Assembly: GCF_001307155.1 (NCBI RefSeq)
Contig: NZ_CP012830.1
Coordinates: forward strand, 2,680,501-2,744,500
Length of the DNA stretch: 64,000 nt
Direction of reading: 5' to 3'
From: Pseudomonas fluorescens
Lineage (GTDB): Bacteria; Pseudomonadota; Gammaproteobacteria; Pseudomonadales; Pseudomonadaceae
The notes under the pieces were generated by a model, which worked only from the letters and a program-made list of their open reading frames with translations, made no database searches and was not told where the DNA came from. Numbering within the stretch: the first letter of the stretch is position 1; every line of letters begins with the position of its first letter. The translations under genes and the position numbers were made by a program. This document shows positions 1 to 62,168 of this stretch, in pieces.

Positions 1-3000
1 GGCGTGGTGCTGTTGTTCTTCGGTTTGGCGTTTTTGCTGCGCTACGCCACCGAAGGCATGGTGGTGCCAATTGAATTGCGTTACGCCGGGGTCGCTGCGG
101 CCGCGTTGGCGTTGCTGGGCCTGGGTTGGTGGTTGCGACTGCGCAACACCAACTACGCGTTGATCCTGCAGGGGACCGGCATTGCCGTGCTGTACCTGAC
201 GGTGTTCGCCGCCATGCGCCTGCACCCGTTGCTCGACCCGACGGCGGCGTTGGGCTTGCTGGTGGCGGTGACGATCTTCTCGGCGATTCTGGCGATCACC
301 CAGGACTCGCTCGCGCTGGCCTGTGCGGCGGCATTGGGCGGGTTCGCCGCGCCGATCCTGACCTCCACCGGCGCCGGCAACCATGTCGCGCTGTTCAGCT
401 ACTTCGCCTTGCTCAACACCGGCATCCTCGCCATCGCCTGGTTCAAGGCCTGGCGGCCGCTGAACCTGATTGGCTTCGCCGGCACCTTCGGCATTGGCTT
501 TGCCTGGGGCGTGCGTTCCTATACGCCGGAACTGCTGTGGAGCACCGAGCCGTTCCTGATCCTGTTCTTCCTCATGTACCTGGCGATCGGCTTGTTGTTC
601 ACCCGCCGCAAACTGCTCGAGATGACTGACGCGCCGGAGGATGACAGCCGTGACGCGCTGTTGCGCTGGTCGGCGCGCAAGGGCGACTACGTCGACGGCA
701 CGATGCTCTTCGGTCCACCACTGGTGGGCTTTGGCATGCAGTTCGCGCTGATTCATCATTTTGAGTTCGCTGCCGCGTTCAGCGCGCTGGCGTTGGGCAT
801 CGTGTACATGGGCCTGGCGCGTTTTCTCAGCGGCGGTCGAGCCCTGCTGCTGGCGGAAACCTGCCTGGCGCTGGGGGTGATTTTCGCCAGCCTGGCGATC
901 CCGCTGGGTCTCGATGCGCGCTGGACGGCGGCCGCCTGGGCGGTGGAGGGCGCGGGAATCTTCTGGCTTGGCTTGCGTCAGCATCGGCCGTTGGCGCGGG
1001 CTTTTGCCTTGCTGTTGCAGCTGGGTTCGGCGCTGGCGTTCCTCAGCAAACTGAGCCTGGGCGACAGCAGTCTGCTCGATGGTTCAGCGCTTGGTGCGCT
1101 GATGCTCGGCGTGGCGTTGCTGTTCAGTTTCTACCACTTGCGCAACGCTTCCCCTGAGCAAACCTCGGCCTGGGAACGCAAGGGCTTGCCGGTGTTGGCC
1201 TGTGCAGGACTGACGTTCCTTTATCTGTTGGCGCCGTTGTCCTTCTTCACCCACGGTACTGCGATCAGTTGGGCGCTGGCCGGTTTGGTGACGTTGTTTG
1301 TCGGCTTGCGCCTGCAATCGCGAACCTTCCTGTTTACGGCGTTTGGGGTGCAACTGCTGGGCGGTGTGTTGTTCCTGCTGCGGCTGCAAGGCGCCAGCGG
1401 TGAGGAGGCGGCGGTGTTCAGTGCTGGCTGGAGCGGTTTGCTCACCGCATCGTTGATTGGCCTGGCGTTGATCGGTGGAATGCTGTTCGCCGCTCGCGAC
1501 GACATGGTGCGCAGTGACGCACGATTGCTGCGTGGGTTGTCGGTGGTGTTGCTGGCCGGGTTGGTGCTGATCAATCTGGCGGTGCTGTTCGTGTTGCCGT
1601 GGCAAACGGCGAGCGCGGTGTGGGCGGCCAGCGGTCTGTTGATCATCTGGCTGAGCCTGTACTTGCAGCAGCGGGTGAGTTTTGTCTTTGGCTTGTTGTT
1701 GCAGGTGATCGGCGGCGCGGCGTTCCTGATCGCGGGGCCCGAACTGCTCGGGCCGCTCGCCAGCGAAGGTCTGCGGCCACTGGGCCACAGCGGTTTCTGG
1801 ACGCCGATGGTGCTCGGGCTGGCGGCGATGGTCGGTGCCTGGCGCTTGCAGCTTGGCAATCATGCCAGTGCGTTCGATGCCTTGAGTTTGCAGCGCTTGT
1901 CCGAGTTGCTGCTGGTGTGGGGCGCCGCCTGGTGGGCGCTGGCGCTGATCAGCGAAGTGCTGCGGTTTGCACCGCTGAACCTGCAAGCCACGCTGTTGCT
2001 GGGCCTCGCAGCGCTGAGCGTCGCAGTGTGGACGTTGTTGTCCCGACGACTGCAATGGCCGGCACTGGGCGTGCTCTGCACGTTGCTGATTCCAGCGGCG
2101 GCGCTGGTATTGGTCGCGGCCTGGTATTCGCGTTATCACCCTGCAGCGAATTTCGGCTGGCTGGCGTGGGCGATGGTGTTCGGGATGCATTTCATCTCGC
2201 TGCGGCGCTTGGCGCCGATGCTCCCCGCGCGAGTATTGAGCGCTGCTCACGTGGTGGGTTGCTGGCTGTTGATCGGCGTGTTGGCGCTGGAGCTGCGTTA
2301 CGGCTTGCTGGTGTTGTCCGAGCAATACAACGCTTGGCGCTGGCTGGGTTGGGCGATCTTGCCGAGCCTGTATCTGGTGCTGATGGCCGCACCGCGCGCC
2401 TGGCCGTGGCCGGTGTCGGCGTATGCCCGCGAGTACCGCGTGTACGCCGCGCTACCGCTGGCGCTGTTGATGCTCGGCTGGTTCTGGCTGGCGAACATTG
2501 CCAGCGACGGCACCGCCGAACCGTTGCCTTATCTGCCGTTGCTCAACCCGTTGGACATCGGCCTGCTGTTTGCCTTGTTCGGCGTTTATATGTGGTCGCG
2601 CAGTGCGGTCAGCCAATTGGCGATTCGTGCCGATTACGCCGAGGGTGCCACGCAAGTGGTGGCCGGAGTCTCGCTGTTTGCCTTCTTCACCGCGCTGGTG
2701 ATGCGCAGCGCTCACCATTGGGCTGGCGTGCCGTATGAGTTGGATGCGTTGCTGGAGTCGATGTTGGTGCAGGCGGGCTTGTCGATCGTCTGGACCCTGA
2801 TTGCCCTGAGCCTGATGATCGGCGGGCATTTGCGCCATCGTCGGGAAGTCTGGCTGGTCGGCGCGGCGTTGATTGCGCTGGTGGTCGCCAAACTGGTCTT
2901 TGTCGAACTGAGTAACCGCGGCGGTCTGGCGCGGATCGTGTCGTTTATCGGCGTGGGCGTGTTGCTGCTGGTAGTGGGCTATTTCGCACCGCTGCCACCC

Positions 3001-61224: not shown

Positions 61225-61381
61225 CGCAGATGTACCCCAACCAAATCTGTAGGAGCTGAGCTTGCTCGCGATGGCGGCCGGATAGCCGGCCTATCTCTTG
61301 CGGATGTACATCAATTCACTGTGGGAGCCGGGCTTGCCCGCGATGGCGGCCTGACAGCCGACCAACCTCTCGCAGGTGTAC
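61225..61381. repeat. Tandem units of about 73 bp containing single REP copies
   Basis: Three starts of a unit at 61225, 61299 and 61371, each opening with CGCAGATGTAC, TGCGGATGTAC or CGCAGGTGTAC. The first two continue to TGTAGGAGCTGAGCTTGCTC or GTGGGAGCCGGGCTTGCCCG, then CGCGATGGCGGCC. The copies are direct, unlike the inverted doublets elsewhere. The third is cut after about 10 bases. Confidence 0.75.
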
Positions 61382-61400
61382 ATATCCATTCCTGCGGTAA

Positions 61401-61725
61401 CGGCCGCTTAGGGTTTCGCCCTGACGGCGACTCACTTTTCCAGACGCCGAAAAGTAAGCAAAAGGCTTCGCCCCAAGCGTACGGCACCTCGCCTAGGCTC
61501 GGCGTTCCCTTGCTCCGGTGTCCATCAGGGGGCATCGCCTACGGTCTGCTTCGCGACGACCTCCTCTCGATGTGTCCGGCTGCGCCGTACGGCGCTGCGC
61601 GCCCACCCCCTGATGAACACCTCCACTCGGCCTCCCGATAGGGGCGGGTGGATCAAGATCAACGGCAAAGCACGGCGGCCTACCGGCCGGCCTGAGTGGT
61701 TGGGGCGTGTGCGGCTTCAGAAGCT
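61401..61725. repeat. Degenerate Pseudomonas intergenic repeat, non-coding
   Basis: Contains TTCGCCCTGACGGCGACTCA, then a run with CGCCTAGGCTCGGCGTTCCC, matching in style a dispersed Pseudomonas intergenic element. Open frames on both strands are short, overlapping and without ribosome-binding sites. No gene supported. Confidence 0.5.
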
Positions 61726-61810: not shown

Positions 61811-61928
61811 ATTTGTGTAATGCCCGTAGGATGAGGCAGGAACTTGATGACAGCATCACGGGCAACGTAGAAATCTCCGACAAGTCTTTAAGGTTGCCCC
61901 TCGGAAGCGTGGCCTCTAGCCTTTGATC

Positions 61929-62014
61929 GTCGCTGCCCATTCAGCGACCGGATTTGACCGTCCGTGTAAATCAAGGCGCGCCAGCGCCCAAGACCTATTC
62001 CAGGCGCTTTTTTT
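61929..62014 (+). promoter_or_regulatory. Structured leader with terminator and antiterminator arms
   Basis: A perfect hairpin GTCGCTG-CCCATT-CAGCGAC (61929-61948), then GATTT/AAATC pairing (61951-61972). AGCGCC (61983-61988) can pair with GGCGCT (62003-62008) followed by seven T, a terminator. The same left arm can pair instead with GGCGC at 61975-61979 through a GCCA loop, which would prevent the terminator. A weak promoter candidate TTGATG-N18-TAGAAA lies at 61844-61873. Confidence 0.55.
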
Positions 62015-62033
62015 GCGTCTGAGGTATCGTGTC

Positions 62034-62168
62034 ATGGCGGCTGTGCGTGGGACACCTTCGGGTGTGCCGGGTTCCTTGATTCCTGGTCGGTCAACCCGCG
62101 TACAGCTGCCACCTTTTCGTTTGACCGCGGACGGTGGTAGCTCCAACAATCAAGGAGCTCCATCATGA
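62034..62168 (+). CDS. 44-codon leader ORF coupled to the DUF6124 gene
   Basis: ATG at 62034 with GAGGT at 62021-62025 (spacing 8) opens 44 codons that stop at TGA in an ATGA overlap with the next start. The peptide (MAAVRGTPSGVPGSLIPGRS at its start, GGSSNNQGAPS at its end) has no known domain or signal peptide. Its coding RNA contains the hairpins described around the downstream ribosome-binding site, so it is more likely a regulatory leader than a functional protein. It is too short to prove by sequence alone. Confidence 0.5.
   Translation: MAAVRGTPSGVPGSLIPGRSTRVQLPPFRLTADGGSSNNQGAPS
62104..62159 (+). promoter_or_regulatory. Mutually exclusive hairpins around the DUF6124 Shine-Dalgarno
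   Basis: Hairpin 1 pairs AGCTGCCACC (62104-62113) with GGTGGTAGCT (62133-62142), with one G-U. Hairpin 2 pairs AGCTCC (62139-62144) with GGAGCT (62154-62159) and hides the AGGAG at 62153-62157. They share bases 62139-62142, so only one can form. GGTCAA (62088-62093) with TTGACC (62121-62126) is a third possible pairing. Confidence 0.55.

Follow-up and report, generated by a model that had tools for sequence, protein, structure and literature searches.

The block at positions 61929-62168 of the 64-kb Pseudomonas fluorescens window (the whole stretch of DNA that was analysed) is, judged by its sequence, very probably a chromosomal C4 antisense unit, the module by which phages P1 and P7 silence their antirepressor. 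A wider reading, to which we give about even chances, is that Pseudomonas chromosomes carry antisense immunity units by the dozen, working in parallel and seldom cross-silencing, with codes kept apart by selection; this would mirror, inside one genome, phage heteroimmunity or plasmid incompatibility. We read the pattern as 'intragenomic heteroimmunity'.

The C4 unit in the window

An Rfam scan of the window gave two matches over cut-off, to the C4 antisense RNA and the c4-a1b1 target element (Table 1), both touching this block, which is therefore not an orphan leader. The block scores over the curated C4 cut-off, has the conserved C4 fold, and carries a' and b' segments complementary to two target pairs, a1/b1 and a2/b2. 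The a2 core (62148-62156) overlaps the AAGGAG Shine-Dalgarno sequence (62152-62157) of the DUF6124 gene, which is flanked by a malic-enzyme gene and by a penicillin-binding-protein gene on the other strand. The antirepressor (ant) cargo of P1 and P7, a trait outside the RNA model, does not lie behind this unit, where DUF6124 is found instead. The unit is C07 among the 27 C4 units of its genome. Window positions ~61247-61701 are ~91% identical to a stretch upstream of another of these, C20, and may represent a dispersed repeat tied to the spread of the units.

Table 1. Features of the C4 unit and of the gene behind it, in window positions
Feature	Position	Strand	Basis or remark
Sigma-70-like promoter, TTGCCC-17-TAGCCT	61894-61922	+	conserved in paralogue alignment
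c4-a1b1 target element	61916-61968	+	RF03163, 55.3 bits (gathering score 46.7); match starts on the -10 box
isrK match	61929-62014	+	RF01394, permissive scan, 36.3 bits, under the gathering score of 50
b1 core, TTGACCG	61954-61960	+	exact complement of b'
a1 core, AATCAAGG	61969-61976	+	exact complement of a'
Antiterminator arm, GGCGC	61975-61979	+	sequence; two bases in common with a1
Intrinsic-terminator-like hairpin	61983-62014	+	arms 61983-61988/62003-62008, seven T at 62008-62014
C4 antisense RNA	62030-62116	+	RF01695, 81.5 bits (gathering score 45)
44-codon ORF	62034-62168	+	from the initial annotation; ATG 62034, stop 62166-62168; judged a chance frame
a' (TCCTTGATT), in C4 loop	62073-62081	+	complement of a1 and a2
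b' (CGGTCAA), in C4 junction	62088-62094	+	complement of b1 and b2
Alternative hairpin	62104-62142	+	C4 3' arm 62104-62113 with 62133-62142
b2 core, TTGACCG	62121-62127	+	pairs with b'
Shine-Dalgarno hairpin	62139-62159	+	arms 62139-62144/62154-62159; weaker covariation
a2 core, AATCAAGGA	62148-62156	+	9-base exact complement of a'
DUF6124 gene, 129 aa	62165-62554	+	PF19619, 94.1 bits (cut-off 27)

We aligned the 27 C4 units of the window genome and compared their pairing with 500 shuffles. The C4 fold is conserved (95.7% of cells paired with 61 double-change cells, compared with 32-45% paired in slid versions), and the complementarity within units covaries. For b'-b2, 91.5% of cells are paired and 47 changed on both sides (66.8% and 10.6 in shuffles, all 500 of which stayed lower; 25-50% paired in slid versions), and for b'-b1 the values are 93.1% and 49 (0 of 500); in both pairings, two of five covariation measures, namely pairs with a double change and further pair types, were not above shuffles.

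The initial annotation had read this stretch as a transcription attenuator followed by a Shine-Dalgarno switch, with translation or stalling in a 44-codon leader ORF selecting the structure in response to an unknown ligand, and had suggested an undescribed regulatory unit. All of its elements are present in the window: the terminator stem (61983-62008) with seven T and its rival arm, the ORF with GAGGT and an ATGA overlap on the DUF6124 start at 62165, and two hairpins that have 62139-62142 in common, one of which buries the Shine-Dalgarno sequence. These hairpins form the cis side of the device, in which 62133-62142 and the C4 5' arm are alternative partners of the C4 3' arm, and the 62139-62144 arm is able to close the DUF6124 Shine-Dalgarno sequence. 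The interpretation appears right in part and to have missed the centre of the device: between both layers, in place of a ligand, would stand the antisense RNA of a described kind, C4, and not a new ligand sensor.

Both layers have counterparts in relatives. In the alignment of the 27 paralogues, the first T of TTG and TAnnnT of the promoter are invariant. Across 108 units (the 27 own units plus 81 from other Pseudomonas genomes, where 9 of 90 C4 units were dropped for having no ORF of at least 45 codons at the expected place), TTGnnn-16..18-TAnnnT is found in 97, compared with 5% of shuffles; a generic promoter scan of the window did not include the window promoter among its calls. By a loose criterion, a terminator-like hairpin lies between a1b1 and C4 in 60 of the 108 units (16% of shuffles), including only 12 of the 27 own-genome units and absent from the other 15. 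In 46 of these 60 the terminator has a rival arm ahead of it (5.5% of shuffles), five of those listed being own units; the window copy went uncounted because the script took a longer left arm that includes part of the rival arm. Because the antiterminator arm overlaps a1, C4 binding should favour the terminator. The Shine-Dalgarno-sequestering hairpin likewise recurs in the 27 paralogues. The compensatory changes looked for in the 62104-62159 hairpins are clear for 62104/62142 (82.7% of cells paired, 14 double-change cells, covariation 0.271 versus 0.176, 0 of 500) and weak for the Shine-Dalgarno hairpin (84.3%, eight double changes, 7 of 500 on the covariation score).

The leader ORF is not conserved. 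Its frame and length vary freely among the 27 paralogues, its ATG is part of the C4 stem (present in 24 of 27 copies), and by eye the GAGGT occurs in the window copy alone. The ATGA overlap is found in 2/27 own units, 0/35 and 5/52 units of two further genomes (G010 and G049, respectively) and 6/57 DUF6124 loci elsewhere, and we rejected control by the leader ORF since neither frame, stop nor overlap is kept across these four sets. The unit thus has neither the conserved leader ORF of a leader-peptide attenuator nor a conserved upstream ORF of the kind that IsrK-type loci couple to the target gene. According to PMC12197685, orf45 is kept in nucleotides and variable in amino acids, consistent with the 44-codon ORF being a chance frame.

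Copies and cargo across Pseudomonas

The expectation that the block would be a family-wide device ahead of DUF6124 genes was borne out. At 60 DUF6124 loci found with patterns from the window protein (all titled Pseudomonas, some from one genome), we observed C4 at 57, with 46-58 bases from its end to the start codon, a1b1 only at 2, and neither over cut-off at 1. Among 149 Pseudomonas genomes, the window genome included, C4 is present in 138 and DUF6124 in 115; 27 C4 candidates per genome were scored, so that counts of 27 are lower bounds. Scoring 38 candidates gave at least 38 DUF6124 matches in some Pseudomonas genomes, and G010 and G049 have 36 and 55 C4 matches (35 and 52 over cut-off). 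In a class-wide sample, C4 was found in 17 of 273 other genomes, at up to six copies (15 candidates scored). In one genome of this class, 1.5 Mb in size, four C4 matches fall within 1.4 kb, an apparent array (L110 and G409:C9:1700-3092).

The window genome holds 27 C4 RNAs, 31 DUF6124 matches (26 full, 5 partial) and 12 DUF3077 matches, and 9 of the 26 full-length DUF6124 copies are without C4 by Rfam. Classed by similarity to one example per family, the cargo behind its C4s is DUF6124 (17), DUF3077 (3), Bro-N antirepressor-like (1) and three further small families (6). In the 81 units from other genomes, taken from the highest-scoring C4 matches, DUF6124 was matched in 20, DUF3077 in 17 (E<=0.01) and Bro-N in 8, a protein being able to count for two families. 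When each was assigned to the most similar of six examples, 31 fell to a 52-aa family, 12 to DUF3077, 10 to DUF6124, eight to Bro-N and seven to another small family, and 13 to none. The ~52-aa family stands behind C4 in 32 of the 108 units (for example, L001 and L064), followed by DUF3077 in 20 of the 32, and its member in the window genome has no Pfam match. DUF3077 (PF11275) resembles DUF6124 in that its genes also lie behind C4 units (3/27 own, 17/81 others), but the two are separate Pfam families with weak similarity (20.6 bits versus a cut-off of 21).

Of 50,697 phage records, one had a DUF6124 match at E<=0.01, and of 72,556 plasmid records none had one at E<=0.001, a near-absence on which we rejected DUF6124 as phage or plasmid cargo. 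A model of the window protein (13 sequences, mean pLDDT 73) is confident only in two helices, residues 63-87 and 91-115 (pLDDT about 94). Foldseek returned no match to this model with E under 0.98, and Rop is absent among the 50 of 224 matches listed; an RNA-binding role of the helical hairpin akin to that of Rop is unsupported, the two-helix model having no significant structural match.

Several further loci were observed along the way. Behind C25, L057 (G000:C1:4297503-4302425) has five partial DUF6124 matches that cover the final 36-42 positions of the profile, with a spacing of 369 bases among four of them, as in a decaying or repeat-like array. At L047 (1226-1374 and 1501-1689), a C4-less gene that matches both DUF6124 and DUF3077 adjoins a PrrF sRNA gene. 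TwoAYGGAY RNA motifs lie near DUF6124 units at L327, L328, L331, L333, L338 and L347, and the IsrK (RF01394) cut-off was passed at two other loci, L045 and L345.

Self-matching codes and their turnover

We scored a code match as the longest exact complement, summed over a and b. By the summed a2 and b2 match, 27/27 targets of the window genome have their cognate C4 as the best or tied-best partner and 25/27 C4s their cognate target, and none of 20,000 permutations reached the cognate match for a1, a2, b1 or b2. Cognates are best or tied for 31/35 targets and 25/35 C4s in G010, for 47/52 and 48/52 in G049 (below-cut-off matches left out, 1 of 36 and 3 of 55, respectively), and for 21/24 and 22/24 in a relative (G422). 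The exact-complement measure replaced a ranking by unconstrained duplex energy, by which the cognate came first in only 11/27 C4s, because slipped GC-rich pairings compete; the cognate energy sum beats all 100,000 permutations. The exact a2 match is merely 4 bases in C05, C18 and C24. Several targets have a b code in common (TTGGCGA in three of 27), so the separation of units is incomplete, and 44 different longest b words, with some nested inside others, occur in the 114 units compared.

Seven of the nine C4-less DUF6124 copies keep a1b1 at E up to 3.3e-4, three above the gathering score. At eight loci (L022, L025, L026, L030, L035, L036, L037 and L044) a solo a1b1 stands directly ahead of the gene, DUF6124 in seven and DUF3077 in one, and at some an a-like word is repeated at the Shine-Dalgarno sequence. 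The best a+b match of these eight elements to a C4 is 12-14, compared with 11-17 for paired targets to foreign C4s, and match lengths do not support the C4-less DUF6124 genes as trans targets of other C4s.

The codes turn over faster than the rest of the unit. C07 and C20 have identical 129-aa proteins and different a and b codes. In 17 paralogue pairs of the window genome whose genes are 0.9 or more identical (a unit may belong to several pairs), mean identity is 0.927 for the gene, 0.842 for the C4 scaffold, 0.706 for the b core and 0.689 for the a loop. At the site of the window unit, between maeB and ponA, there is no DUF6124 in the 29 best ponA-matching of 147 other genomes (maeB is visible in the flank at 27 of the 29 loci), and an Rfam scan of 20 of the 29 found no C4 over cut-off in any; this empty site indicates that the window unit was probably inserted there. 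In P. fluorescens HK44 (L289) the same site has a unit, which carries the code of C20 of the window genome.

We compared further sites with the HK44 genome, which has 26 C4 matches, 24 over cut-off. For 12 of its units at least one flank is 94-98% identical to that of a unit in the window genome, both flanks at five sites (the second flank of C08 being 92.3%) and one at seven; C14 (87.6% flank), C25 (128-base flank), weaker flank matches and the two sub-cut-off C4s were left out. Codes agree at 3/12 sites (C02, C04 and C12, with one flank each) and differ at 9/12: the b core is changed at five (C03, C06, C07, C10 and C20) and the a segment alone at four (C05, C08, C17 and C22). At the nine changed sites, identity averages 0.92-0.94 around the promoter, 0.56-0.81 between a1b1 and the start codon, and 0.91-0.96 in the gene (89-96% site by site); outside the unit it is 0.77-0.87 further upstream and 0.56-0.79 past the gene, because neighbourhoods differ at some sites.

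Sequence comparison at three of these sites suggests replacement of whole blocks. The HK44 blocks at the C06 and C10 sites are 0.980 and 0.956 identical to the block of the other site and 0.746 and 0.728 to that of the same site, so that the control blocks of C06 and C10 look exchanged. At the C06 site, the gene in HK44 is closer to that of C06 than to that of C10 (0.938 versus 0.902); at the C10 site, where one flank was matched, it is also nearer to that of C06 (0.921 versus 0.888), and the replaced tract may thus take in the gene. At the C07 site, the block in HK44 has an identity of 0.972 with that of C20 and of 0.655 with that of C07, with the genes about equally near (0.932 and 0.927). 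At the other six changed sites, the code is matched by no unit of the window genome.

Action of C4 in trans would lead one to expect that units sharing a cell avoid matches to each other. In three genomes, predicted cross-matches (a and b at least 6 bases) amount to 47 of 4544 for units of the same genome and 144 of 8338 for units of different genomes, with 13 of 5000 permutations of the within/between labels as low; only a few pairs among the three genomes are syntenic, and codes common by descent could inflate the between-genome figure. Ten thresholds all gave fewer cross-matches within than between; for nine of these, no more than 60 of 2000 permutations (3%) were as low, and for the tenth 219 of 2000 (11%).

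Proposed mechanism, alternatives and known systems

Homology and pairing suggest the following roles for the unit. The single promoter would give one transcript with a1b1, the terminator/antiterminator, C4, b2/a2 and the DUF6124 gene. In P1 the targets are likewise laid out as a1/b1/a2/b2, and the C4 RNA of P1 and P7 is cut from its transcript by RNase P; here too, C4 RNA is presumably cut out. Its a' and b' would pair with a2 and b2 and so hide the Shine-Dalgarno sequence of DUF6124, and could also pair with a1 and b1, where occupation of a1 would break the antiterminator arm and favour early termination. The short a1b1 RNA ended at the terminator may in turn soak up C4, an IsrK-like relief. 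Units would be duplicated and inserted around the chromosome, nearly all keeping a self-matching a/b code, while codes diverge, at some sites through replacement of the whole block from a1b1 to the start codon by that of another copy. Since a single exchangeable block of ~250 bases holds the antisense together with its two target pairs, recombination could switch specificity without breaking self-recognition, and through the divergence of codes copies would seldom silence each other, as P1 and P7 are heteroimmune.

The recurrence of the alternative hairpins in relatives also fits a switch that works only in cis, in which a' and b' pair within their own transcript and choose between terminator and antiterminator and between open and closed Shine-Dalgarno sequence, with no trans-acting C4 RNA. 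Such a switch would need self-matching codes equally, and PMC4825925 describes a cis layer for IsrK of Gifsy-1. We consider it unlikely, as the C4 fold persists as a compact domain, P1 c4 RNA is described as trans-acting in PMC8546580, and a cis switch gives no reason for codes that diverge faster than the scaffold or for lower cross-matching within genomes. Selection of the structure by translation or stalling in the 44-codon ORF, with translational coupling, is highly improbable; the ORF, GAGGT and ATGA overlap are there in the window, and orf45 of Gifsy-1 is coupled to anrP (PMC4825925), but the scarcity of the overlap in all four sets of units and the unconserved frame and stop speak against it.

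A type I toxin-antitoxin system, with DUF6124 as the toxin and C4 as the RNA antitoxin that keeps the unit in the genome, would account for an antisense RNA over the Shine-Dalgarno sequence of a small gene and for scattered, apparently inserted units. We think this very unlikely: the nine full-length DUF6124 copies without C4 would be hard to keep if unrepressed expression kills, cargo varies, and no toxin family is among the Pfam and NCBIfam matches of the window gene. Divergence of codes by compensatory drift and recombination between copies, with no selection against cross-silencing, is possible though somewhat doubtful; whole-block replacement explains the changed codes at the C06, C10 and C07 sites without selection, but against it cross-matches are lower within than between genomes at all ten thresholds. 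For the separation of codes between C4 units, we infer selection as the cause.

As C4 units, these loci have several implications. They point to the likely control of the uncharacterised DUF6124 family, and they mark DUF6124, DUF3077 and the other cargo as genes that may stay silent until C4 is lost or titrated, which is where their function might be sought. They also offer a natural library of self-matching antisense codes for measuring the evolution of antisense specificity, and open a direct question: does a common code silence a neighbour's gene? In the literature searched on C4 antisense RNA, heteroimmunity and Pseudomonas, chromosomal C4 families and code turnover were not found (supplements lay outside the search, and that of PMC2864571 may hold more). 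The same search gave no paper on DUF6124 and a passing mention alone of DUF3077.

C4 and its targets are described in PMC2864571, IsrK in PMC4825925 (as an a1b1-like RNA ended by a terminator, with readthrough ahead of the controlled gene) and the dependence of P1/P7 heteroimmunity on C4 in PMC12197685; the chromosomal expansion and code turnover were met nowhere in the literature searched. The IsrK locus of Gifsy-1 (RF01394) has an a1b1-like RNA with a terminator, to which the a1b1 element and the terminator-like hairpin of the window unit would correspond; the window unit differs in a match below the gathering score, no conserved orf45-like coupled ORF and cargo other than anrP. The CI RNA of phage P4, with seqA and seqC, is similar by its description in PMC4825925, as an antisense RNA with targets on both sides of itself and premature termination. 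The C4 systems of P1 and P7 (RF01695 and RF03163) share the fold and the a'/b' segments; they too have a1/b1 upstream of C4, a further target pair that covers the ribosome-binding site, and codes that vary from unit to unit, the basis of heteroimmunity. Unlike these, the units described here are chromosomal, number up to 52 copies over cut-off per genome, stand ahead of DUF6124 instead of icd/ant, and appear to have exchanged codes between sites.
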